Virus record (IMG/VR): IMGVR_UViG_3300045999_010590
Coordinates: 1 to 31,654 of that record
Length of the DNA: 31,654 nt
Source: a virus
Direction: 5' to 3' (one strand)
Under the pieces are notes generated by a model, which was not told where the DNA came from, searched no databases, and was given only the letters and a program-made list of their open reading frames with translations. Position 1 is the first letter of the stretch, and every line of letters starts with the position of its first letter. Positions 3,469 to 24,317 of this stretch are shown one piece after another. The translations under genes and the position numbers were made by a program.

Positions 3469-3900
3469 TTATTTAAAGAAATCATCATTATCAGGTAAAT
3501 TATCCAATGAATCTGAGATGTATAAATCTACATCTGATTTAGATACTTTTGTTCCTTCTTCTTCCCAATATGTATTAAAATTTAATCCTAAATCAATTTT
3601 AGCTAAATCTTCATCAGAATAATCATCCCACGTTCCAGATTGTTTTGCTAAACTTAAAGCATCATCCTCACCTCCAGCAGTATGCCCTTTAATACTCCAT
3701 TTAAAATATTCTTTAGGAGTCATATTTGTTAAACCTTTACTGATTTTTTGTAAGTAATAAGGAGCAAATTTTTCTACACCAGGTAAAATATTTAAAGCAC
3801 CTAAGTTGACATTACCTTCATTTAATACTTCTAACATTTTACGAGCTTGGCCTTCGGTGATAATACCTGCCAATTGATTCATTCTAATTATGTCTTTCAT
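3469..3900 (-). CDS. Unknown protein with N-terminal capsid-targeting-like tag (143 aa)
   Basis: Residues 1-28 are nearly the same as the starts of the proteins at 3949 and 20794: MKDIIRMNQLAG, then IITEG, then EVLNEG. ITE-G and LNE-G both match the T4 gp21 prohead-protease rule ((I/L)-x-E before G/A). After the tag the protein is unrelated to the other two. It has a segment NMTPKEYFKWSIKG (about 59-72) and a very acidic C-terminus (DNLPDNDDFFK). No known domain seen. I infer that the tag is cut off during head maturation and the remainder is packaged. Both an ATATTTATAA box and a TTGG-N19-TATATT promoter lie upstream. Confidence 0.72.
   Translation of the reverse strand: MKDIIRMNQLAGIITEGQARKMLEVLNEGNVNLGALNILPGVEKFAPYYLQKISKGLTNMTPKEYFKWSIKGHTAGGEDDALSLAKQSGTWDDYSDEDLAKIDLGLNFNTYWEEEGTKVSKSDVDLYISDSLDNLPDNDDFFK
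3817..3900 (-). repeat. Tag-coding repeat, copy 1
   Basis: The 84 bases encoding the 28-residue N-terminal tag. DNA similarity to 21022-21105 is very high (for example CGAGCTTGGCCTTC on the plus strand in both) and similarity to 5083-5166 is clear. The similarity stops where the tag ends, pointing to module shuffling. Confidence 0.75.
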
Positions 3901-3948: not shown

Positions 3949-5166
3949 TTAAAAAATAATTGATTTTTTCACCCCAGGTACCATTTTCTTTATTTGTTTT
4001 TGGGTGTATTTCTGGGATAAGGGGGTATCAAATAAAAATACCTCACCCCGAACTTCTAAACTATTGGGTAAAGATTCAATTGGGAGTCCATTTAAATACA
4101 AATTCTCTCCAACTCTTAAATCACCAGGTAAAGATTGGATTTTAGTATCTATTAAACTTAAATTACCCCTAACCTGTAAACCATTAGGTAAAGATTTAAT
4201 TGGAGTATCTTCTAAATTCAAGTCTCCATTAACTTTTAATCCATCAGGTAAAGATTCAATTTGGCTATTTGATAAATCTAATCCACCAGTAAATTTGAAT
4301 CCTTTAGGTAAAGATTTAATGGCTGTATTTCTTATTTCAAAATCCCCTTTGACCTCAAGATTATCAGGTAAGGATTGGATTTTAGATTTTGCTAAATGTA
4401 AACCACCTCCAAGTTTTAAATCATTAGGTAATGATTGAATCTGTGTATGCCACAAATATAAATCACCTCCTACTTTTAATCCCTTAGGTAAAGATTCAAG
4501 TGTAGTAGAACTTAAATCCAAATCCCCTTTAACATCAAGATTATCAGATAAAGATTTAATTGGAGTATAACCTAAACTTAAACCACCTCCAACCTTTAAT
4601 CCTTTAGGTAAAGATTGGATTTTTGATTTAGTTAAATCTAAATTACCTCCAACTTCTAAATCATCAGGTAAAGATTCAATTGGAGTATATCCTAAATCTA
4701 GTTCACCCTTAACCTTTAATCCTTTGGGTAAAGATTTAATAGATGTATAATCTAATTTTAAATCACCCTTAATATCAAGATTATCAGGTAAGGATTGTAT
4801 TTTGGTACTTGACAAATTTAGATTACCGTCAATTTTTAAATCTTTGGGTAAAGATTCAATTGGAGTAGAGCTTGCATTTAAATTACCTCTAACATGTAGA
4901 TTATTAGGTAAAGATTTGATTGAACTCCCAATCAAAACCAAATCACCCCCAACGCTTAAATTATCAGGCAAAGATTGAATTTTAGTATTCATTAAATATA
5001 AATCACCCTTCCCTCCTTTTTCAATATATTGTTGGATTTGTGGTTCAATATCTTTACTTTTATCAATGGTATAATAATTTGCTTCGTTTAATATTTCTAA
5101 CATTCTTTTAGCTTGGACTTCAGTAATAATTCCAGCTAATTGTTGCATTCTTATAATGTCTTTCAT
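3949..5166 (-). CDS. Leucine-rich-repeat protein with capsid-targeting-like tag
   Basis: 405 aa. Residues 1-28 are the shared tag (MKDIIRMQQLAG ... EILNEA, with LNE-A as a T4-type cleavage site). About residues 65-384 hold 16 tandem 20-residue repeats of the form SLPxxLxVxGxLxLxxTxIx. The 20-residue period and the central LP resemble the short LRRs of secreted bacterial effectors (YopM/IpaH type), though no E3 or other enzymatic domain follows. The last 20 residues are basic (KKMVPGVKKSIIF). LRRs bind proteins, so a host-protein-binding, virion-delivered role is an inference. A TTATAAATAT box lies 3 bases upstream of the start. The closest relatives could also be tail or surface LRR proteins. 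Confidence 0.82.
   Translation of the reverse strand: MKDIIRMQQLAGIITEVQAKRMLEILNEANYYTIDKSKDIEPQIQQYIEKGGKGDLYLMNTKIQSLPDNLSVGGDLVLIGSSIKSLPNNLHVRGNLNASSTPIESLPKDLKIDGNLNLSSTKIQSLPDNLDIKGDLKLDYTSIKSLPKGLKVKGELDLGYTPIESLPDDLEVGGNLDLTKSKIQSLPKGLKVGGGLSLGYTPIKSLSDNLDVKGDLDLSSTTLESLPKGLKVGGDLYLWHTQIQSLPNDLKLGGGLHLAKSKIQSLPDNLEVKGDFEIRNTAIKSLPKGFKFTGGLDLSNSQIESLPDGLKVNGDLNLEDTPIKSLPNGLQVRGNLSLIDTKIQSLPGDLRVGENLYLNGLPIESLPNSLEVRGEVFLFDTPLSQKYTQKQIKKMVPGVKKSIIF
4015..4974 (-). repeat. 60-bp tandem repeats encoding LRRs
   Basis: Sixteen in-frame 60-base units inside the LRR gene. The period shows on the plus strand as a recurring AGGTAAAGATT every 60 bases. Units are diverged, with alternating sub-types (IQSLP versus IKSLP/IESLP), suggesting growth by duplication of larger blocks. 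Confidence 0.9.
5083..5166 (-). repeat. Tag-coding repeat, copy 2
   Basis: 84 bases encoding the tag of the LRR protein. It is the most diverged of the three copies: V replaces G after ITE, and K20-R21 replaces R-K. Confidence 0.7.
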
Positions 5167-5652: not shown

Positions 5653-7263
5653 TTACATCATTCCCATCATGTCTCCAAACCCACCGTCATTTTTCTTTTC
5701 TTCGGGTTTGTCAACTACAACGGCTTCTGTCAATAAGATAGTACCAGCAACTGAAGCTGCATTTTCAAGAGCAGTCCTAGTTACTTTGAAAGGATCAATA
5801 ATACCAGCCTCTTTCATATCAACCAAATCACCTGCTTTAAGATCAAAACCATCCCAAAACATTCCATTTTTAATTTCGTTGATAATTCCATAAGCATACT
5901 CAGGTTCAACTCCAGCGTTTGAAAGAATTTTCTTGAATGGGGCAGCACATGCCTGATAAACAATTGAGGAACCAATACTGTCTATTTCAATTAAATCACG
6001 AACATGAAGCAGAGCAACACCACCACCCGGAACAATACCTTCTTCAAGGGCAGCTTTAGTAGCTTGTAAAGCATCATCCACACGGTCTTTCTTTTCTTTC
6101 ATTTCTGATTCAGTAAAACCACCAACGTGTACAACAGCTACTCCACCAATGAATTTGGCCAAACGTTCTTGCAATTTTTCTTTTTCGTATGGAGAGGTTG
6201 ATTTATCGATTTGTGTTTGAAGTTCTTCAATACGTTGTTTAATGGCTTCAGCATCACCTTTACCATCTACGATAGTGGTTTCGTCTTTACCTACAGTAAC
6301 AACACGTGCCTGACCAAACCAATCCCAACTGAATTTATCTAGTTTCATACCTTTTTCAGTACTGAATACTTGACCACCAGTCAAAATAGCAATATCTTCA
6401 AGGATCAGTTTACGACGATCTCCAAAATCAGGTGCTTTTACAGCAACAACTTTCAAAATACCACGAGCTTTGTTTACAATTAGAGTAGCAAGTGCTTCGC
6501 TGTCAATATCTTCGGCAATCAAAACCAAAGGTTTATTTTGATTTGATACTGCTTCCAAAATAGGTAACAATTCTTTTACTTGAGTAAAACGTTTGTCGGC
6601 AATCAAAATCAAGGCATCATGTAAAATAGTTGTCATTGAGTTATTGTCGGTAACAAAGTAAGGAGATTTGTAACCACGGTCAAACTGCATACCTTCTACT
6701 GTTTCGAGGTATGTTTCACCATTTTTAGATTCTTCAATAAACACAACACCTTCACGACCTACTTTTTGCATAGCGGTGGCAATCAATTCACCTACTTCAG
6801 GATCATTGTTTGCTGAAATAGTAGCAATTTGTTTAAGTTGGTCTTCTGAAGAAATGTCTTCTTTAACTTCCAAACGGAGTTGTTCAACAATTTCTTTTAC
6901 TGCTTTGTCAATGCCTCTTTTAATTTCAACAGCATTTTCTCCATTGTTTAGATAAGCCAAACCTTGTTTAACCATTTCTTGAGCCAACAAAGTAGAGGTA
7001 GTAGTACCATCACCTGCATTTTCTGCTGTTTTAATAGCTGCTTGTTTAACCAATTGTACACCCAATTCTTCGATTGGATCTTCCAATGTAATTGATTTTG
7101 CTACAGTAACTCCATCTTTTGTGCTTTGAGGAATACCACCATTGGCAATTACCACGTTACGTCCATTAGGACCTAAAGTAGAGGTAACAGCATTAGCCAG
7201 TTTATCAATACCTGCAGATAGTTTTTTACGAGCTTCGGGACCAAATTCTATAATTTTGTTCAT
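5653..7263 (-). CDS. groEL: Chaperonin GroEL (Hsp60)
   Basis: 536 aa, essentially full length (E. coli 548). Forms the double-ring ATP-driven folding chamber with GroES. The ATP-site motif AGDGTTT (about 87-93), the [11 protein letters not shown] loop near residue 28, and the conserved DD of the [16 protein letters not shown] region (the equivalent of E. coli D398) are present, as is the VPGGGVALL signature. The end [10 protein letters not shown] is a version of the bacterial GGM tail. It lies 10 bases after groES, forming a groES-groEL operon as in bacteria. Likely acquired from a bacterial host. Phage capsid or tail assembly is the expected client. Confidence 0.97.
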
Positions 7264-7273
7264 AAGTTTTTAA

Positions 7274-7597
7274 TTAAAAAGGTAATTCTGTTTCTTCTGT
7301 TTCTTCATCACTTGATACTTTGGCAAGTACCTGGTTCTCTGGCCCCACCCAGTATTCATCACCTTTGAACTCCAGTTTAGTGAATCCCATTGTAGGAAGT
7401 ACAACAATGTCTCCAACTTTTAGTTCAGTACGGATAAAAGTACCAGTGGCCGAATAATAACCTTCACCAACAGATACTACTGTGGCAAGTTTGTTTTTCT
7501 CATTTCCCAAATCGGGAACAATAATTTTACCATATGAAGTTTCTTCTTCCTCATAGGGTTTTACAACAATAGCGTTATAAATTGCTTTGATTTTCAT
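7274..7597 (-). CDS. groES: Co-chaperonin GroES
   Basis: 107 aa, slightly longer than cellular GroES (about 97). The order IYNAIVVKPYEEEE, mobile-loop region YGKIIVPD, VVSVGEGYYSATG and LKVGDIVVLP follows GroES. It caps the GroEL chamber. Unusual feature: an acidic C-terminal extension ending ETELPF, which is the same kind of tip as bacterial SSB and two other proteins in this window. It lies directly before groEL and 2 bases after a 93-aa unknown gene. Confidence 0.92.
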   Translation of the reverse strand: MKIKAIYNAIVVKPYEEEETSYGKIIVPDLGNEKNKLATVVSVGEGYYSATGTFIRTELKVGDIVVLPTMGFTKLEFKGDEYWVGPENQVLAKVSSDEETEETELPF

Positions 7598-14143: not shown

Positions 14144-14773
14144 TTATAAATCTTTTCCGTTTTTTGAAATTGCATGTAAAAATTCTTCTCTAATTAAATT
14201 ATCTGATTCCATAAATACACCAGAAAACTTATTTGTGGTCATTACAGATGTCGGATGTTTTATTCCTCGGTTTCCACAACACATATGCTTTGAGGAAATA
14301 CTTACAGCAACAGATTCACATTGTAATTTTTTAGATAAAAAAGTATGAATTTGTTGTGTAAGTGACTCTTGCATCTGAGGTCTACGAGAAAACCAATCAA
14401 CTACTCGGTTCAATTTAGATAATCCTATCACATTTTCATTAGGAACATAAGCAACAGAAGCATATCCTGTAAAAGGTAGATTGTGATGAGCACACATTGA
14501 TACCACTGGGATTCCAGTTTGTATAACTACTCCATCATAATTTTCTTCGTTAGGAAAAACCGTCATTGAAGGTTCATCTGTAATAGAACCTATAATTAAA
14601 TCTTTTAACCAAGCCTTTGCAACTCTATTTGGAGTATCAACTGTTTGAGGATCAGCTTCATAATCAAAACCCATTGAATTTAAAAAATTTCCATAATGAA
14701 TGGCAGCTTCTCTAACCATTTTCTCAATTTCCTCTTGACTACGAGGAAAATTACTATTTGCTTTCTTAATCAT
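14144..14773 (-). CDS. folE: GTP cyclohydrolase I (FolE)
   Basis: 209 aa. Converts GTP to dihydroneopterin triphosphate, the first step of 7-deazaguanine and folate synthesis. Zinc-site motif CAHHNLPF at C94-H97, with Ala where most enzymes have Glu. The core VAYVPNENVIGLSKLNRVV and RPQMQESLTQQI, and the second Cys in HMCCGNRG (164-170), are all typical. With queC, queD and queE nearby the role is most likely preQ0 synthesis for DNA modification. Own promoter at 14780-14809; dcd follows. Confidence 0.95.
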   Translation of the reverse strand: MIKKANSNFPRSQEEIEKMVREAAIHYGNFLNSMGFDYEADPQTVDTPNRVAKAWLKDLIIGSITDEPSMTVFPNEENYDGVVIQTGIPVVSMCAHHNLPFTGYASVAYVPNENVIGLSKLNRVVDWFSRRPQMQESLTQQIHTFLSKKLQCESVAVSISSKHMCCGNRGIKHPTSVMTTNKFSGVFMESDNLIREEFLHAISKNGKDL

Positions 14774-14779
14774 AACTGT

Positions 14780-14809
14780 AATATAATAATATTTTTTATA
14801 AAAACCAAA
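14780..14809 (-). promoter_or_regulatory. Promoter of folE (TTTGG-N19-TATATT)
   Basis: Minus strand TTTGG (14805-14809), 19 bases, TATATT (14780-14785), 6 bases to the ATG at 14773. No hairpin here, so the promoter pattern exists independently of the terminators. Confidence 0.7.
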
Positions 14810-14814
14810 TTAAA

Positions 14815-15327
14815 TTAATCATCATTCATAACTCCTGTTATGAAAGGTTGGTTTCTTTTTAAACCTTTTTCTCCATCTAATCCATAACCTACAAGCCAGT
14901 ATTCGTTTTCTAACTCAAAACCATAAATTAGATTTGAGGGTGAGGAATGTTGTTTTTTAAATAGAGTAATAGGGGTAATTGATTTAGGATTATTGTAGTT
15001 TAGGTGTTTGATTAAACGATTCATAGTATTGCCTGAATCATAAATGTCGTCTACTAAATAAACATCTTTTCCTTTAATATCAGTATCAATAGATTTTAGG
15101 ATACGGATTTCACCCTGTGATTGATTTTCGTAGGATTTCGCACGTATAAAGTCTATAGTGCAATCACTCATTTGTTTCACTAAATCCGTAAAAAACATAA
15201 AAGCGCCGTTTAAAACGCATATAAACACAGGAGGTTCCTCATGTTTATTGTTTTTAATAAGATTAGCAATTTCGCTTACTTTGTTTTGGATTTCTTTTTC
15301 TGTAAATAAAACTTGGTATTTTGTCAT
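14815..15327 (-). CDS. hpt: Hypoxanthine(-guanine) phosphoribosyltransferase
   Basis: 170 aa, typical length. Transfers phosphoribosyl from PRPP to hypoxanthine or guanine. PRPP-binding motif VYLVDDIYDSGNT at 89-101, the LNGAFMFFTDL loop at 39-49, and the VGYGLDGEKGLKRNQPFI end are characteristic. A purine salvage enzyme beside GTP-consuming FolE would raise the GTP pool; this link is inference. Overlaps the preceding thioredoxin-like gene by 4 bases. Confidence 0.92.
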   Translation of the reverse strand: MTKYQVLFTEKEIQNKVSEIANLIKNNKHEEPPVFICVLNGAFMFFTDLVKQMSDCTIDFIRAKSYENQSQGEIRILKSIDTDIKGKDVYLVDDIYDSGNTMNRLIKHLNYNNPKSITPITLFKKQHSSPSNLIYGFELENEYWLVGYGLDGEKGLKRNQPFITGVMNDD

Positions 15328-15569
15328 AAAACTAATTTTTTCAAAACTTCTTTAATTTCTTTTACACCTTCAAATTTGTGCTTACCGTTTTTATCTTCAA
15401 TTACCAGAGTAGGTACCCATTCAATTTTAAAAGATTCAGTAATCAATTCTTCTTCATAGGTGTTAACCATTTTAATTCCTAAAGGTTCACTAAACTCAGA
15501 AATCAATGGTTTTAATTCATTACATTTTCCACAATCATCTGTGTAGAAAAAAGTTATTTCGGGTCTCAT
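15324..15569 (-). CDS. Thioredoxin/glutaredoxin-like protein with CGKC active site
   Basis: 81 aa. Start ITFFYTDDCGKCNELKPLI has a redox C-x-x-C (C13, C16) and a cis-proline in WVPTLVI, the thioredoxin-fold hallmarks. Short length and CGKC suggest a phage glutaredoxin-like electron donor. It may reduce the ribonucleotide reductase. An ATATTTATAA box lies 2 bases upstream. It is followed by hpt with a 4-base overlap. Confidence 0.85.
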   Translation of the reverse strand: MRPEITFFYTDDCGKCNELKPLISEFSEPLGIKMVNTYEEELITESFKIEWVPTLVIEDKNGKHKFEGVKEIKEVLKKLVL

Positions 15570-15571
15570 TT

Positions 15572-15581
15572 TTATAAATAT
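15572..15581 (-). promoter_or_regulatory. ATATTTATAA box before thioredoxin-like gene
   Basis: Minus strand ATATTTATAA ends 2 bases before the ATG at 15569. No TTGG at the 19-base distance. If functional, transcription would start at or just past the start codon. Confidence 0.42.
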
Positions 15582-15982
15582 TAAAGTTTAGATTCAGGGA
15601 TTCTATATTTGTCTTTTACTGTTTGGGAAATGGAGATAGGTACTCCTTCATCATCCACTCTAACAAATGTCATGTTGGTTGATAAAAGAACTACCTCGTC
15701 TCCTCTAAATACATTATAGGCTCTTGCCTCTACTCTAAAAGTAGCTGATGTATTTCCTATCCTTGATACCTCAGCATAAATTTTAACTAGATTTTTTTCT
15801 CTTGCTGGTTTAGTAAAAACACATTTGTCTATAGCTATAGTAATCATGTTTTGGCTCCTACAAGTTTCCATAGCATAAGCGGCTACTGCGGCATCAACCC
15901 ATGAAAGTAATTTACCACCAAATAGATTACCATGAAAGCCTAAATCTAATTTTTTAACTGGGTGTGTGGATAGTAAGTCCAT
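15581..15982 (-). CDS. Hotdog-fold acyl-CoA thioesterase (YciA-like)
   Basis: 133 aa. Hydrolyses acyl-CoA to free acid and CoA. The hotdog signature HGNLFGGKLLSWVDAAVAAYA (17-37) matches the NxxGDIFGG...D region of YciA/BACH-type thioesterases. The second half (VKIYAEVSRIGNTSATFRVEARA) also fits. Its start overlaps the queE stop by 1 base (TAATG), so it belongs to the trx-queD-queE transcript. A thioesterase is uncommon in phages. It may act on host lipid or CoA pools, or the fold may serve another acyl group; the substrate is not deducible. Confidence 0.85.
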   Translation of the reverse strand: MDLLSTHPVKKLDLGFHGNLFGGKLLSWVDAAVAAYAMETCRSQNMITIAIDKCVFTKPAREKNLVKIYAEVSRIGNTSATFRVEARAYNVFRGDEVVLLSTNMTFVRVDDEGVPISISQTVKDKYRIPESKL

Positions 15983-16797
15983 TAAACTGCTCTCTTAGTA
16001 TCGTAAGCAATAATATGATCTCTACCTGTCCAATTATAACCCATTTCCATACATTTTTCAATTGATATAGGATACATTTCAATCAATGTTTCACGAGTAT
16101 CACCAGCAGGCATTAACCAAGTTTTATTTTTAGGGATATTCAACTCAACTCTAAAAGCCTCAATTTCAGCCAAATTTTCTTCAGTACCATCCCATACAGG
16201 TTTGAAATGATAATCACTATGATATTCGATCATCATTTTCATTGCATCATAATTTAAACGAAATTTATTATGTTGATCAATCATTTTTTGGTCAACCAAT
16301 TTTCCAAGAGGAGTATTAACATCTACTTTAGGAACTGAATTGCTGAATTTAGGGCTAAGAGAAATCAAACCAATAGGAAAATCAGTTTTAATAAAGTGAC
16401 TACCTTCAGTTTCAATAGTAATTATAATTCCTCTTTCATTTGCAAAATGAGTCAATTCATTAACCAAATCTGGTTGCATTGTTGGAGAACCACCAGTTAA
16501 CATCATTTCAGTAATATGAGGATTTTCATCATATATTTTGATAATGTCGTTAAAGGTGTAAATACCTTTTTCAGGATGGATACTCGTGTACCAAGAGTCA
16601 CACCAGCCACCAGCACCAAACCAACACCTGTGAGTACAACCTGTTGTTCTAATTGCTACTGTTGGACGTCCTTGTCTTGAACCTTCTGATTGTACACAAG
16701 TATAAACCTCAAGTACAGGTAATTTTTTACTGTAATCAGTAATACGACCTGGTTCTTGAATATTCCAATTTTTTTCTGTTACTTTACTATGATCCAT
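15982..16797 (-). CDS. queE: 7-carboxy-7-deazaguanine synthase (QueE), radical SAM
   Basis: 271 aa. Converts 6-carboxytetrahydropterin to 7-carboxy-7-deazaguanine with SAM and a 4Fe-4S cluster. The cluster motif is C54-x3-C58-x7-C66 (GCTHRCWF ... GWCDS); the last spacing is longer than the usual x2. The SAM-binding glycine motif reads TGGSP, with Ser for the common Glu. The start region CVQSEGSRQGRPTVAIRTTGC is typical for QueE (the usual form is SxQGEG). Lies 2 bases after queD. Confidence 0.93.
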   Translation of the reverse strand: MDHSKVTEKNWNIQEPGRITDYSKKLPVLEVYTCVQSEGSRQGRPTVAIRTTGCTHRCWFGAGGWCDSWYTSIHPEKGIYTFNDIIKIYDENPHITEMMLTGGSPTMQPDLVNELTHFANERGIIITIETEGSHFIKTDFPIGLISLSPKFSNSVPKVDVNTPLGKLVDQKMIDQHNKFRLNYDAMKMMIEYHSDYHFKPVWDGTEENLAEIEAFRVELNIPKNKTWLMPAGDTRETLIEMYPISIEKCMEMGYNWTGRDHIIAYDTKRAV

Positions 16798-16799
16798 AA

Positions 16800-17264
16800 T
16801 TATCCTTTATAAAATGCTGTGTTTTTTTCGTGTTCCCTAAATTCAACTTGAACTACTTTTACTCGTCCGTTAGTTTCCTCTTGAATAAAGGTATTTAATT
16901 TTTCGTAAAGGTATTTTGCAAACTGTTCTGCTCCTGTTGCTGGGATAATACGAAGTTGAATAATACCATCTTTCCACATTTCTTTAAATTGTTCTAAATA
17001 CGGATCATCATCTGCTACTATAACAGTATGATCAAACATATTATCCATCCATGATTTAGGATTCATACCATCAATAGTACCTTTGGCACGTTTCATACCT
17101 CCAAAATCCCAAACCCAATTACGTTCATCTAGTTCACCTTCAAACCATACTTTAAAGCTTACTCCATAACCATGAAGAAACTGACAATGAGTTCCATCGG
17201 CTTTCCATTGACGGAATACTGTTGAGTAACCATCAAATACTTTTGTTGATCTAAAACTACCCAT
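16800..17264 (-). CDS. queD: 6-carboxy-5,6,7,8-tetrahydropterin synthase-like (QueD)
   Basis: 154 aa. Expected to convert dihydroneopterin triphosphate to 6-carboxytetrahydropterin. Conserved features: Cys27 and His31 in HCQFLHGYG, DFGGMK at 53-58, FDHT at 77-80, and a Glu in TGAEQFAKYL. Canonical enzymes bind zinc with three His (AAH and HGH). Here the third is Tyr33 and the AAH position is not a His, so the site is altered. This may be a recognised QueD subfamily rather than a decayed copy, since the rest is well kept. Overlaps the thioredoxin gene by 8 bases. Confidence 0.85.
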   Translation of the reverse strand: MGSFRSTKVFDGYSTVFRQWKADGTHCQFLHGYGVSFKVWFEGELDERNWVWDFGGMKRAKGTIDGMNPKSWMDNMFDHTVIVADDDPYLEQFKEMWKDGIIQLRIIPATGAEQFAKYLYEKLNTFIQEETNGRVKVVQVEFREHEKNTAFYKG

Positions 17265-17502
17265 TGATAAATTGCATTACTTGTTCATAACTTCTAGCAC
17301 CTACAAATCGACGAATTTCTCTTCCGTTTTCAGCAATTACTACTGTGGGAACACTTGAAACATTAGCAGTTCGTGCTCTATCCATTTCATAATCGATGTT
17401 AATTTTTTCAACATAAATTTGTTGAGATACCTTATCCATAATTGGACCTAATACTTGGCATGGTTCACACCAAGGGCCATAGAAGTAAAATATTTGTTTC
17501 AT
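17257..17502 (-). CDS. trx: Thioredoxin (WCEPC)
   Basis: 81 aa. Active site WCEPC at 11-15, with Glu in place of the usual Gly, and cis-proline in SSVPTVVI. Shorter than cellular thioredoxin (about 105 aa), as is usual in phages. Likely electron donor to the ribonucleotide reductase. First gene of a transcript with queD, queE and the thioesterase. Promoter at 17510-17539 lies over the 3' end of the upstream GIY-YIG gene. Confidence 0.92.
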   Translation of the reverse strand: MKQIFYFYGPWCEPCQVLGPIMDKVSQQIYVEKINIDYEMDRARTANVSSVPTVVIAENGREIRRFVGARSYEQVMQFING

Positions 17503-17509
17503 AATATTT

Positions 17510-17539
17510 AATATAATAATTAGTTTTTAAATTTCCAAA
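17510..17539 (-). promoter_or_regulatory. Promoter of trx-queD-queE operon (TTTGG-N19-TATATT)
   Basis: Minus strand TTTGG (17535-17539), 19 bases, TATATT (17510-17515), 7 bases to the ATG at 17502. Embedded in the last codons of the GIY-YIG gene. Confidence 0.68.
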
Positions 17540-18101
17540 TGTAACCATAAGAACTTTTTTGTTTTCCTCTACAACAAGCTCCTATCCCATGTCCGGTTTT
17601 ATTTAAGTATTTAGTAGCTTCTATTTGTGAAGGCCATTCTTTTATAAAATTACCTTGTAAATCATATTGCAACACAGGGGTATTTTGCCAAGTATTTTTT
17701 CTATTTTTTAAAAAACCTCTAGTTTGTTTAATTTTTTGTTTATGTTCTTCTGTAAAAGGTTTTCCTTTATGGGATTTAATTTTTCCTTTGTTTCCTTCAC
17801 TTATTTTTTTGCCTCGAGTAGGATGTTGTTTTATTTTCTGAATTGATTCTTCTTTCCATTCTTCAGGGCCCCCACCTCCGTTATTTTTATTTTGCAAAGA
17901 AAATCCTTGTTTTTTAAATTTTTCAATATAATATTTTTCCCATTTTCTCCAATTTAAAACCTCAGAAATAATTTTCATAAATATATTTTCACCAAATATT
18001 TTTTTATGATTAGCTAATCTGTGATATTCATTTCTAGTTTTTCCAACATAAAAAGGAATATTATCTCCAAAATGTAAGTAGTAAATTTTAGTGCGATCCA
18101 T
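17520..18101 (-). CDS. GIY-YIG homing endonuclease with NUMOD modules
   Basis: 193 aa. The N-terminal core (IYYLHFGDNIPFYVGKTRNEYHRL) has the two GIY-YIG motif strands as YYL and YVG, with the catalytic-region Arg. Middle NUMOD3-like repeats (GKKISEGNKGKI, GKPFTEEHKQKI) and a C-terminal NUMOD1 (LQYDLQGNFIKEWPSQIEA ... YIWKFKN) bind DNA. It sits between the queC transcript and the trx-queD-queE transcript and disrupts neither. Upstream there is an ATATTTATAA box and an ATTGG-N19-AATATT arrangement. Confidence 0.87.
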   Translation of the reverse strand: MDRTKIYYLHFGDNIPFYVGKTRNEYHRLANHKKIFGENIFMKIISEVLNWRKWEKYYIEKFKKQGFSLQNKNNGGGGPEEWKEESIQKIKQHPTRGKKISEGNKGKIKSHKGKPFTEEHKQKIKQTRGFLKNRKNTWQNTPVLQYDLQGNFIKEWPSQIEATKYLNKTGHGIGACCRGKQKSSYGYIWKFKN

Positions 18102-18103
18102 GA

Positions 18104-18138
18104 TTATAAATATTAAAAAAATCAGGGATCACACCAAT
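18104..18138 (-). promoter_or_regulatory. ATATTTATAA box with upstream TTGG before GIY-YIG gene
   Basis: Minus strand ATTGG (18134-18138), 19 bases, AATATT (18109-18114), overlapping ATATTTATAA (18104-18113), which ends 2 bases before the ATG at 18101. One-base departures from the consensus in each box. Confidence 0.5.
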
Positions 18139-18140
18139 TT

Positions 18141-18419
18141 TTATACTAATTCTTCTATTATTCCTATAATTTCACTTAATATAAGAACAGAGGCTGCAAT
18201 TACCAAGTTAAATGGAATAAAAAGATAGCCAACAATTCTTACACCTGATTTAATAAAACTTACATACCTATGCCATTTTTGATCCGGCATATACTCAATT
18301 TCTTTATGTGGTTCTTGCCACCTAGGAAATGAATAAGGATTTTCTTTTCCAGTAAGTTCTTTATAATAAGGGTTTGCTTCTCCTGTTTGTGGATCGTGTG
18401 TTGGGATTTTTTTACTCAT
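18141..18419 (-). CDS. Small membrane-anchored protein (92 aa)
   Basis: Soluble, Pro/Tyr-rich N-terminus (THDPQTGEANPYYKELTGKENPY) then a long hydrophobic C-terminal stretch of about residues 57-92 (VRIVGYLFIPFNLVIAASVLILSEIIGII), likely one long or two short membrane segments. No family recognised. Coupled to the upstream 72-aa gene by an ATGA overlap, last gene of the dpdA-queC transcript. Confidence 0.6.
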   Translation of the reverse strand: MSKKIPTHDPQTGEANPYYKELTGKENPYSFPRWQEPHKEIEYMPDQKWHRYVSFIKSGVRIVGYLFIPFNLVIAASVLILSEIIGIIEELV

Positions 18420-18634
18420 TTTAATAATTCTTCTTCATCAACAATCTCGGCTCCTGGATTTTCTTCCAAGAGCCAAGATGTTGATTCTTTAAATAGTGGT
18501 TTACCAGCAGTCCATTCATAAGACCAAGTCAGTTGTCCTTTTAACATTCCGGCATAAACCTCTCCATGTTTGTTAATAACAACATACATTGGTTCTTGGG
18601 ACTTTGATTTCTTATACTTTCTTTTGATAGTCAT
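18416..18634 (-). CDS. Small protein of unknown function (72 aa)
   Basis: Basic N-terminus (TIKRKYKKSKS) and acidic C-terminus (NPGAEIVDEEELLK), with a middle segment VVINKHGEVYAGMLKGQLTWSYEW that looks like a beta hairpin. Starts inside the end of queC (23-base overlap), so translation is probably coupled. No family recognised. Confidence 0.55.
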   Translation of the reverse strand: MTIKRKYKKSKSQEPMYVVINKHGEVYAGMLKGQLTWSYEWTAGKPLFKESTSWLLEENPGAEIVDEEELLK

Positions 18635-19448
18635 CTAGTACGGAATGTACGTACTCTTTTGCAAATTCCCAAGTTACTGGTCCGAATTCGTCAGCATAAC
18701 TTACAGGATCAGGACGACCTAATTTAATAAAGGCCTCAATTCGCTCAACTGAAGATGCTGATTTGTAGTCTGAAAACCATTCCTCACTTGCTGTTTCATC
18801 ATCATAAAACACAACATGTTTGATTGGTTTGTAAGAGGTATTTGTACGACGATAAACTTCATGGAAATCGATTCCTAAAGTATTGCAACAAACTTCACCA
18901 TCAACCAAAATACCGAATTTATCACTATGAAGATAAGGAGTATAATAAGTTACTTTTTCAGCACCCCAGTTACCAGCTACAAATGCTTCGTAATCAATAT
19001 CCCTAAATTCTTGTCTGCAATCCGGATAGATAGCATGATCTCCAGCATGTATTCCCATAGCAATATGAACATCTGTATTTTTGGATTCAGCAATTGATAA
19101 AGCTACTGCCTGGATGATTGAGCTAAAGATTTTATTGCGATTAGGTACAACTGTTGCTTTCATATTTTCCTCAGCATAGTGTCCTTCAGGTACTTCTTCC
19201 CCACCTGTTACAAGTGCTGAATTGAGGAGTTGGCTTAAACCATCAAGTTTAATTACTTGATATTTGATACTTTGACCATTTTGGTTTAAATAATCTACCA
19301 ATTCTTTAGCTCGTTCTAATTCAATAGAATGTTTTTGTCCATAATCAAAGGATAGTGCTGTTACTTCATAGCCATTGGCGAGTAGATGAAGCAGCAATGT
19401 GGAGCTATCTAATCCTCCACTTAGTGATAATACTGCTTGTTTATTCAT
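18612..19448 (-). CDS. queC: 7-cyano-7-deazaguanine synthase homologue (QueC) lacking the zinc cysteines
   Basis: 278 aa (E. coli QueC 231). PP-loop ATPase converting 7-carboxy-7-deazaguanine through the amide to preQ0. P-loop SGGLDSS at 10-16, FDYGQKHSIE, the VVPNRNKIF motif and YPDCRQEF are conserved. The family's C-terminal zinc site (TCY ... CGxCxxC) is gone: the aligned positions read TSY, then Asp, Ser and Ser in DYKSASSVERIEAF, and about 17 residues are inserted between. The fold may be stable without zinc, or the product may differ. Overlaps the 42-aa gene upstream by 4 bases. Confidence 0.88.
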   Translation of the reverse strand: MNKQAVLSLSGGLDSSTLLLHLLANGYEVTALSFDYGQKHSIELERAKELVDYLNQNGQSIKYQVIKLDGLSQLLNSALVTGGEEVPEGHYAEENMKATVVPNRNKIFSSIIQAVALSIAESKNTDVHIAMGIHAGDHAIYPDCRQEFRDIDYEAFVAGNWGAEKVTYYTPYLHSDKFGILVDGEVCCNTLGIDFHEVYRRTNTSYKPIKHVVFYDDETASEEWFSDYKSASSVERIEAFIKLGRPDPVSYADEFGPVTWEFAKEYVHSVLDDYQKKV

Positions 19449-19573
19449 TTTGATAATCTTTTTAATATTTCTAAACGTTTTTGTGTAATTTTATGTTTGT
19501 TTTCACGAATTGCTTGAATTGCTTTTTCAATTTCAGCATCCCATGCAGAGTTAATATCGGTTTGTTTTTTCAT
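19445..19573 (-). CDS. Very small helical protein (42 aa)
   Basis: Read by hand. ATG at 19573, 2 bases after the stop of the 71-aa gene; the stop overlaps the queC start (ATGA). Highly charged and helical in look (WDAEIEKAIQAIRENKHKI, then QKRLEILKRLSK). Tight coupling on both sides and absence of any other use of this 120-base gap support it. Function unknown. Confidence 0.55.
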   Translation of the reverse strand: MKKQTDINSAWDAEIEKAIQAIRENKHKITQKRLEILKRLSK

Positions 19574-19575
19574 AA

Positions 19576-19791
19576 TTAGAAAGGCAAATCATCATTAACA
19601 TCCAACTTAAAGTATGAATCCAAAAAAGACTTAGGATACATCATAATATCTCCTTTGTATTTAGGATTTTCAACATACTTAACGGCATATGTAACTTTTT
19701 GTTCTGCTGCTTTTTTAGCAACATCTTTTCCCAAACGATCACCGGCTGCATAACCAAGGTAATCAAATAACGATAACATTTGATTTTCCAT
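19576..19791 (-). CDS. Small protein with SSB-like C-terminal tip (71 aa)
   Basis: No family recognised. Start ENQMLSLFDYLGYAAGDRLGKDVAKKA includes a SLFDYL motif that resembles clamp-binding peptides. The end KLDVNDDLPF matches the acidic tip of bacterial SSB, which recruits repair and replication proteins, and of the gp32-like protein in this window. Placed between the transglycosylase and queC genes. A partner-binding role with host or phage replication proteins is inference. Confidence 0.6.
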   Translation of the reverse strand: MENQMLSLFDYLGYAAGDRLGKDVAKKAAEQKVTYAVKYVENPKYKGDIMMYPKSFLDSYFKLDVNDDLPF

Positions 19792-19794
19792 AAC

Positions 19795-19950
19795 TTATTT
19801 TTTTAGTTCGTTGTAATACAAAAACGCAAACCAAGCCACAAGCAGTTGATTTAAACCCAAAATATAATTTTGAGAAATAATACTAACCAGCCCAGCCAAA
19901 ACATTGATGATAATAACACCTTTGTTAAAAATTTTTTCAAACTTACTCAT
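19795..19950 (-). CDS. Small membrane protein (51 aa)
   Basis: Read by hand. ATG at 19950, 6 bases after the transglycosylase stop. Two hydrophobic segments: about 11-26 (GVIIINVLAGLVSIIS) and 32-46 (GLNQLLVAWFAFLYY), with charged ends (SKFEKIFNK, NELKK). Fills an otherwise empty gap in the operon. Function unknown. Confidence 0.6.
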   Translation of the reverse strand: MSKFEKIFNKGVIIINVLAGLVSIISQNYILGLNQLLVAWFAFLYYNELKK

Positions 19951-19956
19951 ATACTT

Positions 19957-20733
19957 TTATTTTAATAATTTTCTAAACATTCTTAAATTCCAATCCAACA
20001 AATTATAATCAATTTCTGTTGTATAAAAATGATCATTCATATTTGCTTTTGGTTTTTCAGTTAAACCATTTCGACCATATTTGATACCATCTAAAGTAGC
20101 CATAATTGGATTAGATGTATCAATAGTTTCAATAAAAGGCATATCTTTATACAAGCTAAATTCTTGTGGTACCTGACAACCTAATAAATGTACTCTGTCT
20201 TTAGGTAATATTACTCCCATTTCATATAATCTAGAAATTACCTGAAGTCTACCTAATGATTTGGCTATATTTTTATTTGGATGTGAACTATGATCTAAAT
20301 AATATTCAGCACCATAAGAAAACGCAATCTTTTTATATCCTAAATCTTTATAAACCTGATAGCAAGTAAGGGCATCAGCAAAATTGGTTGCTTGAACTAC
20401 TGCTACTTTAGTAACACCTTTAGGTAATTCAATTTGAGCCCATTTTCTAGCATTAACAATAGAATGAATAGTGTCTTGCCAAACATCAGGAACAATAAAT
20501 TCACTTGGTTTTAATTCATCAATCCAATGTAATAAACCATTGTCGTGATATGCTTCTCCAAGTTCATGGAGTGAATTATCTAAAATAATGTAACGGCCTT
20601 GTTGTTTTGCTTTGCGAAAAAAATTAGCGTAATCTTCATCTTTATCTAACAGATGAACTAAAGCATAGTCATAATCATTAAAATCAAGACTATCTTCTAA
20701 TAAACATAAGGGAACTTCATGACTAATTTTCAT
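19957..20733 (-). CDS. dpdA: TGT-superfamily transglycosylase, probable DpdA (7-deazaguanine insertion into DNA)
   Basis: 258 aa. Three stretches parallel the tRNA-guanine transglycosylase barrel: ILDNSLHE (50-57, like the DSGG region with the base Asp), HLLGCQVPQEF (182-192, like the MGVGxPxDL region) and ETIDTSNPI (202-210, like the nucleophile FDxVxPT region). Candidate catalytic residues are D52 and D205. It is short for a tRNA enzyme and lacks the TGT C-terminal Cys3-His zinc site, as phage DNA-acting DpdA proteins do. Collinear with queC, queD, queE and folE, so the likely role is exchange of guanine in phage DNA for preQ0 or a derivative. A related TIM-barrel enzyme cannot be excluded. 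First gene of its transcript. Confidence 0.68.
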   Translation of the reverse strand: MKISHEVPLCLLEDSLDFNDYDYALVHLLDKDEDYANFFRKAKQQGRYIILDNSLHELGEAYHDNGLLHWIDELKPSEFIVPDVWQDTIHSIVNARKWAQIELPKGVTKVAVVQATNFADALTCYQVYKDLGYKKIAFSYGAEYYLDHSSHPNKNIAKSLGRLQVISRLYEMGVILPKDRVHLLGCQVPQEFSLYKDMPFIETIDTSNPIMATLDGIKYGRNGLTEKPKANMNDHFYTTEIDYNLLDWNLRMFRKLLK

Positions 20734-20793: not shown

Positions 20794-21105
20794 TTATTTT
20801 GGAATTTGACTATTAGAACTAGGTCTGATGTAATCATTTTCCAAAAATTCTTTTTTATCTACATTTATGTCCCAACCTCCATTACTACCTTCCCATCTAA
20901 AGATCAATTCAGTAGGAGTTATTTCTGAAAGTGTTACACCTGTAAACCATTTCCAAGAGGGTTTATCTTTAAAATAAAGGTCATAGATATCACCTACAGA
21001 TAAATCACCTTCAGTCATTCCTTCGTTTAATGCTTCCATCATTTTACGAGCTTGGCCTTCAGTGATTATACCAGCCAATTTGTTCATTTTGATTATGTCT
21101 TTCAT
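20794..21105 (-). CDS. Unknown protein with N-terminal capsid-targeting-like tag (103 aa)
   Basis: Third carrier of the shared tag: MKDIIKMNKLAG, IITEG, EALNEG, with further possible cleavage at MTEG. The rest (about 30-103) is a small beta-rich domain: LSVGDIYDLYF, WKWFTGVTLSEITPTELIFRWEG, FLENDYIRP. It resembles a small SH3-like or OB-like barrel, but I cannot name it. Predicted mature cargo is about 75 residues. Like the gene at 3469 it has both promoter boxes upstream and ends at the same terminator hairpin. Confidence 0.7.
   Translation of the reverse strand: MKDIIKMNKLAGIITEGQARKMMEALNEGMTEGDLSVGDIYDLYFKDKPSWKWFTGVTLSEITPTELIFRWEGSNGGWDINVDKKEFLENDYIRPSSNSQIPK
21022..21105 (-). repeat. 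Tag-coding repeat, copy 3
   Basis: 84 bases encoding the tag; nearly identical in DNA to 3817-3900, 17 kb away. Flanking promoter (spacer with TAAATCCTTTTC) and downstream terminator are also shared, so the whole cassette, apart from the cargo, seems duplicated. Confidence 0.75.
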
Positions 21106-22374: not shown

Positions 22375-23523
22375 TTAATACGTTATAATATCATCATCTT
22401 GTGGTCTGTTTTTACGTTTTTCCTGGAGTGCTTTCTCGTATTCTTTAAGTCTTGCAATCTCGGCATCAATCATCCTTTGTTTACTTAAAAGATCCACATT
22501 TTGACTATTTATGTTATTTATTCTATCTAGGGACTGGAGTAAGTTAGTGTATGCTTTTTCTTCATCCTCTATAATCCATTCATCTGAAGGTGGAGGAGTG
22601 GGGTTGTTAGATTCTTCTTCTTTTTCCCAATTTTGTAAATCAACTAAACTGGCTTCTTCCCATTCCTTCATTTCCTCTTTTAAGTCATCATATGTATCAA
22701 CTACATTTCTCATACTCTCTACCTTTTCCTCTAGGGGTGTTTCTTTGCGTTTAGTAAGTTGAGAAAAAGCAAAGTTAGCGGCTATTACAAGAGCAATAGC
22801 TAATGGATCAAATACAAATATAATAACTAGTATGTACCAGTTAATGATTCGGTCCATAGCAATTCCAGTAAGTTGACTTAAGTATTTTAAAGGACCTAAT
22901 TCACTTTCGGCTGTGGATTTAGTTTTAACCTCTAGGATTTTACTTTCAATAGCAAAAATAGAGTCATTTACTATATCAATTTTAGAAGATAATTTTTCGT
23001 TTGATTTAGAGGCAGACTCAATATTGCGGATAGCTGCATCATTGGATCTTACCACTACATTACCCTTTCTGTCTGTGTATTGAGTAGTGGATGCCTGAGA
23101 TAAATTCCCTTGTAGACTGGCTAGTGTTTGTTTTTCTTTTAAAATGTTGTCTCTAGTTTCCTCAAATAATTTTTTCTTGGATTCTAAAGATTTTATTTTA
23201 GAGTCAACAATACTAGTTTGGTCTGCTGTTTTTTGGTAACCACTACTTAGCATACCATATATTCCTGCTGAAGTTATAAGAGAAAGTATAATAAGAGAAA
23301 TTATATAATATATTTTAGATATCTTATTTAAATCATTCCAGTAAGAATGCAACATAGTTGCTAATGTTAATTTAGATATTTCTAGAAAACTAGACATTAT
23401 TATAACTGCTGTTGAAACTCCAACAAACATTTTAGATAAGCCTATTATACTGTAATAAGCTGCTGTTCCTCCTAATCCTAAAGCACAAAAAGTAATGAGC
23501 CAAGGTAATAATTTTTTATTCAT
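22375..23523 (-). CDS. Four-helix membrane protein with long coiled coil (382 aa)
   Basis: Membrane segments at about 7-27, 33-57, 71-92 and 229-253, with a charged coiled-coil loop at about 100-215 between the third and fourth (SKIKSLESKKKLFEETRDNILKEK, and IESKILEVKTKS) and a cytoplasmic-looking acidic tail with another coil (EKVESMRNVVDTYDDLKEE; RMIDAEIARLKEYEKALQEK). The last helix ends with the pattern FDPLAIALVIAANFAF. Role unknown; a host-envelope or lysis-timing function is conceivable. Its start overlaps the end of the GIY-YIG gene by 8 bases. Confidence 0.72.
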   Translation of the reverse strand: MNKKLLPWLITFCALGLGGTAAYYSIIGLSKMFVGVSTAVIIMSSFLEISKLTLATMLHSYWNDLNKISKIYYIISLIILSLITSAGIYGMLSSGYQKTADQTSIVDSKIKSLESKKKLFEETRDNILKEKQTLASLQGNLSQASTTQYTDRKGNVVVRSNDAAIRNIESASKSNEKLSSKIDIVNDSIFAIESKILEVKTKSTAESELGPLKYLSQLTGIAMDRIINWYILVIIFVFDPLAIALVIAANFAFSQLTKRKETPLEEKVESMRNVVDTYDDLKEEMKEWEEASLVDLQNWEKEEESNNPTPPPSDEWIIEDEEKAYTNLLQSLDRINNINSQNVDLLSKQRMIDAEIARLKEYEKALQEKRKNRPQDDDIITY

Positions 23524-24271
23524 TTTTATATTTCCATTTAAAGTTATAACATGTTTTTTGTTTTTTCTTACAGCAAGCTGTTATTGGAGAAGGATTAATT
23601 CCCATAAATAAAGCAGCATCTTTAGCACTCTCCCATTCTTTAATAAACACATCCTTTAAATCAAATTGTAATATTGGTTTTTTATTTGATTTTCCTATTT
23701 TATTACTCCATTCTTGGGTTCTAGGATGTGACTTTCCTTTATGAGATTCACTAATTTTTTTATTTCTTTCTTTATTGTTACTTATTTTTTCCCCAAATTC
23801 TTTTGGCTTTGATAATCCTTTATTTGAGTTTGGGATACCTTTTTTAGCTTTACTTATATTATTCTTATGTTCTTTTGATTTTTTCTTTCCTGTTAAAGCT
23901 TGACTTTTTTTGATTGATGATTCTTTACTATATTTACATCCTTTTTTAGCATTTGATATTTTAAGACAAATAGATTTATCTAATTTTCCTCCTTTTTCCT
24001 CATCATATCTTATATTTAATCCTTTTTCAACACTATTAAAATAGGTTTTCCAGTATTTTTCTCTTTTTCCTAATTCTTCCTCGATACATTCTTCAATAAT
24101 TTCCATCAAATGATTTTCCCATCCGTATTTTGATATAGAATTATATAATTTAGTTTGAGAAGAACAATTTAGTTTTTTGTAATTAGCTTTTCTTCTATTA
24201 TAATCAATAGTTTGACCTATATAAATTTTACTTGTTATAACACATGTTATTTTATAAATACAGCCTTTCAT
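23516..24271 (-). CDS. GIY-YIG homing endonuclease with NUMOD modules
   Basis: 251 aa from the ATG at 24271. I reject the 10 extra upstream codons because MKGCIYKITC matches the family start and an ATATTTATAA box lies just upstream. GIY-YIG motifs appear as CIY and YIG (SKIYIGQT). The aromatic helix KREKYWKTYF follows, then several NUMOD3-like units (SNAKKGCKYSKESSIKKSQ, HKNNISKAKKGIPNSNKG) and a C-terminal NUMOD1 (ILQFDLKDVFIKEWESAKDAA ... FKWKYKN). Free-standing, directly downstream of the RNR gene, a common target of such enzymes. Confidence 0.88.
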   Translation of the reverse strand: MKGCIYKITCVITSKIYIGQTIDYNRRKANYKKLNCSSQTKLYNSISKYGWENHLMEIIEECIEEELGKREKYWKTYFNSVEKGLNIRYDEEKGGKLDKSICLKISNAKKGCKYSKESSIKKSQALTGKKKSKEHKNNISKAKKGIPNSNKGLSKPKEFGEKISNNKERNKKISESHKGKSHPRTQEWSNKIGKSNKKPILQFDLKDVFIKEWESAKDAALFMGINPSPITACCKKKQKTCYNFKWKYKNE

Positions 24272-24276
24272 ATCTA

Positions 24277-24286
24277 TTATAAATAT
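24277..24286 (-). promoter_or_regulatory. ATATTTATAA box before GIY-YIG gene
   Basis: Minus strand ATATTTATAA, 5 bases before the ATG at 24271. No TTGG. All three GIY-YIG genes in the window have this box. Confidence 0.45.
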
Positions 24287-24317
24287 TAAACAGCTTATCA
24301 AAAAACAGAAAAATAAT

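Follow-up and report, generated by a model that had tools for sequence, protein, structure and literature searches.

How a phage might swap most or all of the guanine in its DNA for a costly analogue without draining its purines is the question raised by a gene cluster in a 31,654-base fragment of an uncultivated virus (IMG/VR record IMGVR_UViG_3300045999_010590, hereafter the window), whose gene content is known for this fragment only. Homologues of FolE, QueD, QueE and QueC are encoded together with a gene resembling tRNA-guanine transglycosylase (TGT), on the minus strand throughout (14144-20733; Table 1), and the arrangement recurs in relatives. An earlier note on this DNA had listed these five genes as collinear in 6.6 kb. 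Content and coordinates were right, according to profile matches and, for the TGT-like gene, fold, but the list omitted two thioredoxin-like genes, a hotdog thioesterase gene and a homing-endonuclease-like open reading frame (ORF; 17520-18101) of the same interval. According to our analysis, the window holds a known kind of phage DNA 7-deazaguanine system, with a transglycosylase of the type found in the phages immuto and CP220, a QueC without the zinc motif and a tightly linked phosphoribosyltransferase (PRTase). The best overall explanation, which we consider probable, is a system that makes 7-deazaguanine and inserts it into the phage DNA while the PRTase returns the guanine. That this phage carries a 7-deazaguanine DNA modification at all is, judged from its sequence, very likely. 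The earlier note proposed a self-sufficient route from guanosine triphosphate (GTP) to 7-deazaguanine, with a DNA transglycosylase; gene content, synteny, the fold and the invariant acidic residues lend this prediction good support.

A megablast search with the region found no match in 50,697 phage records, and searches for distant proteins were therefore used. Eighty loci were kept of 112 confirmed, 45 of which offer 6 kb or more of sequence beyond the transglycosylase gene in the direction of the cluster; near-identical loci (e.g., L011/L012, L021/L028, L077/L078) are counted separately, and the L001 transglycosylase is 100% identical to that of the window. Among these 45 relatives, queC and queE were found in all, queD in 44, folE in 39 and the PRTase gene in 41, with all five present in 36. 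The grouping of the que and folE genes is not due to chance. The second thioredoxin-like gene and the hotdog thioesterase-like gene had tblastn matches in 42 and 11 of the same relatives. In the records of 30 relatives, QueF gave no match above the cut-off, and we attribute a single weak match (16.7 bits) to a protein of similar fold, FolE for example. A formyltransferase was matched in none of these 30 and in one of four named phages (immuto). Most of the relative records are fragments, in which absence is weak evidence, and one is 268,739 bases long.

The transglycosylase had no match among Pfam or NCBIfam models, and among the PHROGs it matched only families of unknown function (PHROG 19058, 1.1e-42). 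Its AlphaFold2 model, built from 36 aligned sequences, reached a pLDDT of 96.1 and a pTM of 0.91. A Foldseek comparison with the PDB placed TGTs on top and the DNA enzyme DpdA (7ui4) at rank 26, while a second structure aligner scored archaeal TGT (1iq8) at Z 17.1 and DpdA 7ui4 at Z 17.0; the fold therefore cannot tell a tRNA enzyme from a DNA enzyme. In a sequence profile search of the PDB the main match, repeat-like in character, was to designed TIM barrels, and the link to TGT is therefore based on the fold, by which the modelled protein is a member of the TGT family of structures. Profile alignment (hhalign) with DpdA1 had a probability below 1%; it pairs both invariant aspartate regions, without being significant. 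The motifs DNSLHEL, IDTSNP and HLLG are kept in 78 of 78 full-length relatives, the short frames L036 and L067 being excluded. Asp52 and Asp205 are candidate catalytic residues, which by their position we take to correspond to the two aspartates used in catalysis by TGT.

The closest named relatives of the enzyme are found in studied or annotated phages, and the transglycosylase itself is not the new element here. A protein annotated as DpdA in Flavobacterium phage vB_FspM_immuto and hypothetical proteins of the Campylobacter CP220 group are about 37% identical to it (CP220 type: 36.8% over query residues 1-234, E 8e-38), the Bacillus phage BSP7 homologue being weaker, and Cellulophaga phage phiST has a fold-level homologue (TM-score 0.84, 20% identity). 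The Pfam family DUF6610 (PF20314) was matched by 22 of the 36 members of the transglycosylase alignment (best E 2.9e-5), which suggests, at the level of sequence, that this family belongs with the DpdA-type transglycosylases.

In its GenBank annotation, immuto has, like the window, FolE, QueD, QueE, QueC, DpdA, a thioesterase and a PRTase beside folE. Identities to the window are 64% for QueC, which is zinc-less in both, and 37% for the transglycosylase. Immuto differs in having QueF and a formyltransferase, neither of them found in the 30 relatives, and in a Gpt-like PRTase where the window has an Hpt-like one. CP220 and CPt10 carry homologous transglycosylases (about 36-37% identity), and CP220 shares QueC, FolE, QueD-like, radical SAM and PRTase-domain genes as well as T4-type core genes; its 7-deazaguanine genes are, however, scattered rather than clustered and its QueC retains the zinc motif. 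BSP7 has queC, queD, queE and folE near its transglycosylase homologue; phiST has folE, queD and queE, and QueC was not found there. Escherichia phage CAjan and phage 9g, the DpdA1 type, likewise combine FolE, QueD, QueE and QueC with a DNA transglycosylase, but the latter is not detectably related by sequence, no PRTase was found in CAjan or 9g, and the CAjan QueC, unlike that of the window, retains the zinc motif.

These relatives also bear on how much guanine is replaced. In CP220 and CPt10 all of the deoxyguanosine (100%) is reported to be replaced, as dADG (PMC8306585, partial text). In CAjan dPreQ0 accounts for about 32% of G and is lost without dpdA, and Hutinet et al. (2019) listed the Campylobacter phages as lacking DpdA, for which a route through modified dGTP was left open (both PMC6884629). 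According to the earlier note, phages with these genes replace part of their guanine, and 'part' may understate the case for this type of transglycosylase. Since no guanine is left unreplaced in the nearest relatives that have been studied, replacement here may be extensive or complete, and by this comparison a complete or near-complete exchange appears somewhat more likely than not. The final base would most likely be dPreQ0, or dADG as in CP220.

The PRTase is one of two points, with QueC, where the window adds something to the known picture. The window protein matches TIGR01203 at 6.9e-39 (133 bits, cut-off 150). A PRTase is present in 36 of 40 relatives with folE, and in 35 of these 36 pairs the gene starts are no more than 700 bp apart, the PRTase coming first in 26 and folE in nine; the four relatives with folE and no PRTase are L045, L058 (at a contig edge), L064 and L069. 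Two PRTase subfamilies share this neighbourhood. Of the 41 relatives with a PRTase, 27 have the Hpt-like kind; the other kind, shorter and Gpt-like, also occurs in immuto, CP220 and phiST. The PRTase profile was built with sequences of the last three, whose matches are thus by construction, and the informative set consists of 17 control genomes of the DpdA1/DpdA2 types. Two of the 17 match, both inside long folE genes, and in the two control phages read directly a PRTase-like domain with a DDIIDSG motif is fused to the N-terminus of FolE, where Pfam scores it weakly or not at all. With the fused domain alone as query, 33 phage records were found, 30 on GTP cyclohydrolase features and three unannotated.

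With the immuto PRTase as query, 40 of the 50,697 phage records matched: four immuto, five Cellulophaga, two Brevundimonas and 11 PA5oct-like Pseudomonas records, four unannotated contigs, and 14 FolE fusions (seven Vibrio, three Stenotrophomonas, two Pseudomonas and two Sphingomonas, one record unannotated). One record each of the Brevundimonas and PA5oct-like groups was inspected. In Brevundimonas phage MaInes folE adjoins an annotated xanthine PRTase, and queC, queD and queE are present; in Pseudomonas phage MIJ3 (PA5oct-like) gpt adjoins queE, and QueC was not found. We had considered that the PRTase might be specific to the CP220-type transglycosylase, an idea that was dropped, as FolE fusions in DpdA1 phages widen the link and BSP7 has no PRTase. 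Literature searches, and word searches of PMC6884629 and PMC7472734, within a literature that did not include the main recent papers, found no published mention of a PRTase linked to phage 7-deazaguanine.

The earlier note had assigned hpt to purine salvage. In favour of a general salvage gene with no special tie to DNA modification, the phage carries other nucleotide genes (a ribonucleotide reductase (RNR)-like gene by eye, a dCTP deaminase-like gene and thioredoxins), and Hpt is common in bacteria. This reading we regard as unlikely: an Hpt-like match is rare among phage records (18 of 50,697, of which 15 carry no annotation), two different PRTase subfamilies fill the same slot, and the PRTase adjoins folE in most relatives, is fused to FolE in other phages, and in both PRTase-bearing controls takes the form of such a fusion. 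The gene beside folE is probably part of the modification system rather than a generic extra.

We posit the following route for such a system. FolE, QueD, QueE and QueC would convert GTP to a 7-deazaguanine base, which the short DpdA-type transglycosylase would insert into phage DNA by base exchange, and the modified DNA would resist restriction enzymes that read guanine. Each exchange would free one guanine and each deazaguanine made would spend one GTP. The adjacent PRTase would convert the freed guanine to guanosine monophosphate, from which kinases would restore GTP for FolE, so that one guanine might be returned per GTP used. The 268-kb relative, with 32.4% GC, holds about 87,000 deoxyguanosines per genome; full replacement in 100 genomes within a cell of 1 femtolitre (both values assumed) would release about 14 mM guanine. 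We slightly favour the existence of this guanine loop. The joint reading, in which a FolE-linked or fused PRTase is a regular part that closes a one-to-one loop and QueC works without zinc, is a tentative one that falls a little short of even.

Several results weigh against this explanation. In profile alignment with bacterial TGT the transglycosylase had a probability of 0.3%, so that TGT is undetectable by sequence profile. Such enzymes have reportedly been named DpdA3 by Cui et al. in 2023 and tied to complete replacement of G. The window enzyme presumably falls in this subfamily, an assignment that passes through its homology to the CP220 protein, which we take to be a member. For the PRTase, the less sensitive model PF00156 recovered it in seven of 31 records and in none of the 17 controls and missed CP220, and in CP220 and phiST the PRTase does not adjoin folE. 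No PRTase was found in BSP7, which has the transglycosylase, or in 15 of the 17 DpdA1/DpdA2 control genomes. The guanine loop is therefore not obligatory, and perhaps is dispensable where the host salvages guanine. Lastly, the window QueC reads TSYKP...SDYKSASSVER at the site of the expected cysteines and lacks C(x)8CxxCxxC.

This last point concerns a motif that, together with SGGxDS, defines the QueC family, for which ATP and zinc are described as required; the zinc motif is reported as required in E. coli QueC, and the reaction proceeds via ADG (PMC13329287, partial text). From the motif set of the same paper, the window QueC keeps SGGxDS, YxQxHxxE (as YGQKHxxE), VPxRN (as VPNRN) and YPDC, and its predicted structure has the solved QueC 3bl5 as best match. 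Among 67 QueC sequences 200 residues or longer, 64 lack CxxCxxC, those of the window and immuto included, and only those of CAjan, CP220 and BSP7 have it. Among 80 cellular or binned QueC loci, two had the motif, 74 lacked it and four were left unclassed by our script, three of which lack CxxCxxC by eye while L118 is cut. Because of their phage-like neighbours (dpdA, or queD and queE at phage-like identity), L111, L112, L114, L116 and L118 are probably phage contigs in genome bins. The zinc-less sequences comprise these phages, marine Euryarchaeota (Poseidoniales), Pirellulaceae and Thiotrichales (window 18612-19448; L113, L115, L117, L119-L190), and in Cysteiniphilum, Facilibium and a Thiotrichales genome the gene adjoins queE and queD. 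Each of 16 genomes checked, 15 zinc-less and one motif-bearing control (G046), had a single strong QueC match, and TGT was found in 15 of the 16, including 14 of the 15 zinc-less ones. By sequence comparison the zinc-less QueC is a real clade and not a decayed gene, and it probably still makes preQ0. In several Poseidoniales loci (L119, L121, L124, L150 and similar) the QueC frame runs on into an extra C-terminal part, which by eye, from its motif, may be akin to methionine sulfoxide reductase B.

Alternatively, the zinc-less QueC might go no further than the amide, which would give ADG as the DNA base without any separate enzyme. QueC does work through ADG (PMC13329287, partial text), and the 30 relatives have neither QueF above the cut-off nor a formyltransferase match. 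But as the only strong QueC of 15 cellular genomes, 14 of them with TGT, the zinc-less form appears to deliver preQ0, and CP220 has dADG although its QueC carries the zinc motif; we therefore think this outcome improbable, if not strikingly so. Seventeen CP220 frames match the 268-kb relative; we read them as genes of the phage core, genes for 7-deazaguanine and one for a P-loop kinase, with no obvious candidate among them for a shared preQ0-to-ADG gene.

Less probable still is a route in which the PRTase would take the deazaguanine base (preQ0 or ADG) as its own substrate and make a nucleotide, to be reduced and phosphorylated to a modified dGTP for the DNA polymerase, with the transglycosylase secondary; full replacement would be expected here as well. 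According to Hutinet et al. (2019; PMC6884629, partial text), a modified-dGTP route has been put forward for Campylobacter phages, the window has an RNR-like gene by eye, and immuto, CP220 and BSP7 each have a P-loop kinase-like gene next to or close to that of the transglycosylase (L082 25570-26094, L083 11494-12036, L090 19336-19899). No such nearby kinase was seen beside the transglycosylase gene of the window, the transglycosylase retains its invariant acidic residues in all 78 full-length relatives, and the PRTase is linked or fused to FolE, the first enzyme, and not to QueC, the last. This adjacency and fusion would fit guanine recycling better than a role on preQ0. As a separate observation, the CP220 P-loop kinase-like gene has a homologue elsewhere in the 268-kb relative.

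Bacterial tRNA TGT uses preQ1 as its substrate. That the genes instead raise queuosine in host tRNA for better translation, with the transglycosylase acting on tRNA, is very improbable: the fold is equally near tRNA TGT and DpdA, and such a role has been suggested for phages with preQ0 genes but no DpdA (PMC6884629, partial text), but the protein is a bare 258-residue barrel with only three scattered cysteines, none of the 36 alignment members matches PF01702 at E up to 0.1, no QueF rose above the cut-off in the records of the 30 relatives, and the relatives CP220 and CPt10 have the modified base in DNA (PMC8306585, partial text).

Further features of the window and its relatives are as follows. 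The queE product matches TIGR03365 at 1.1e-15, below the cut-off. For QueE of this phage group, all 50 ORFs matched in the phage loci retrieved carry the cluster motif CX3CX7C, where CAjan and BSP7 have CX3CX2C. Three ORFs (812-1462, 17520-18101 and 23516-24301) have by eye the look of GIY-YIG or similar homing endonucleases. GroEL-like and GroES-like genes are present (5653-7597, by eye), and both are also annotated in immuto. Three otherwise unlike proteins on the minus strand (20794-21105, 3469-3900 and 3949-5166) share a 28-residue leader, MKDIIxMxxLAGIITExQAxxMxExLNE, which recurs in two further proteins of the 268-kb relative. It could be a capsid-targeting leader cleaved after LNE by a T4-type prohead protease, given what we take to be the cleavage consensus of that enzyme.

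Table 1. Genes of the 7-deazaguanine cluster and its interspersed neighbours in the window
Feature	Position	Strand	Basis
folE, GTP cyclohydrolase I, first step from GTP	14144..14773	-	PF01227 E 2.9e-51; PHROG 2197 3.1e-62
hpt-like 6-oxopurine phosphoribosyltransferase (PRTase)	14815..15327	-	PF00156 2.3e-24, above cut-off
Thioredoxin-like protein, first	15324..15569	-	PF00085 1.1e-7
Hotdog-fold thioesterase-like protein	15581..15982	-	PF03061 3.4e-17
queE, radical SAM 7-carboxy-7-deazaguanine synthase	15982..16797	-	PHROG 2076 2e-49
queD, 6-carboxytetrahydropterin synthase	16800..17264	-	PF01242 1.9e-15; PHROG 2389 2.4e-39
Thioredoxin-like protein, second	17257..17502	-	PF00085 9.6e-16
Homing-endonuclease-like ORF, between second thioredoxin gene and queC	17520-18101		By eye
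queC, zinc-less 7-cyano-7-deazaguanine synthase	18612..19448	-	PF06508 8.2e-37
DpdA-type transglycosylase, TGT-like, 258 residues	19957..20733	-	Fold; homologues in immuto and CP220

Modification of DNA with 7-deazaguanine is a known kind of anti-restriction armour, and we posit that guanine recycling by the PRTase is the most useful new idea to come from this locus. The 15 zinc-less archaeal and bacterial genomes checked apparently have no other strong QueC than the zinc-less one, which questions the need for zinc in this enzyme. The linkage of PRTase and folE, and their fusions, may serve as a marker for 7-deazaguanine systems. To the question of how a phage exchanges its guanine without exhausting its purines, this linkage offers a concrete answer: the guanine loop, if true, would allow full-genome replacement at no net purine cost and would avoid millimolar free guanine.

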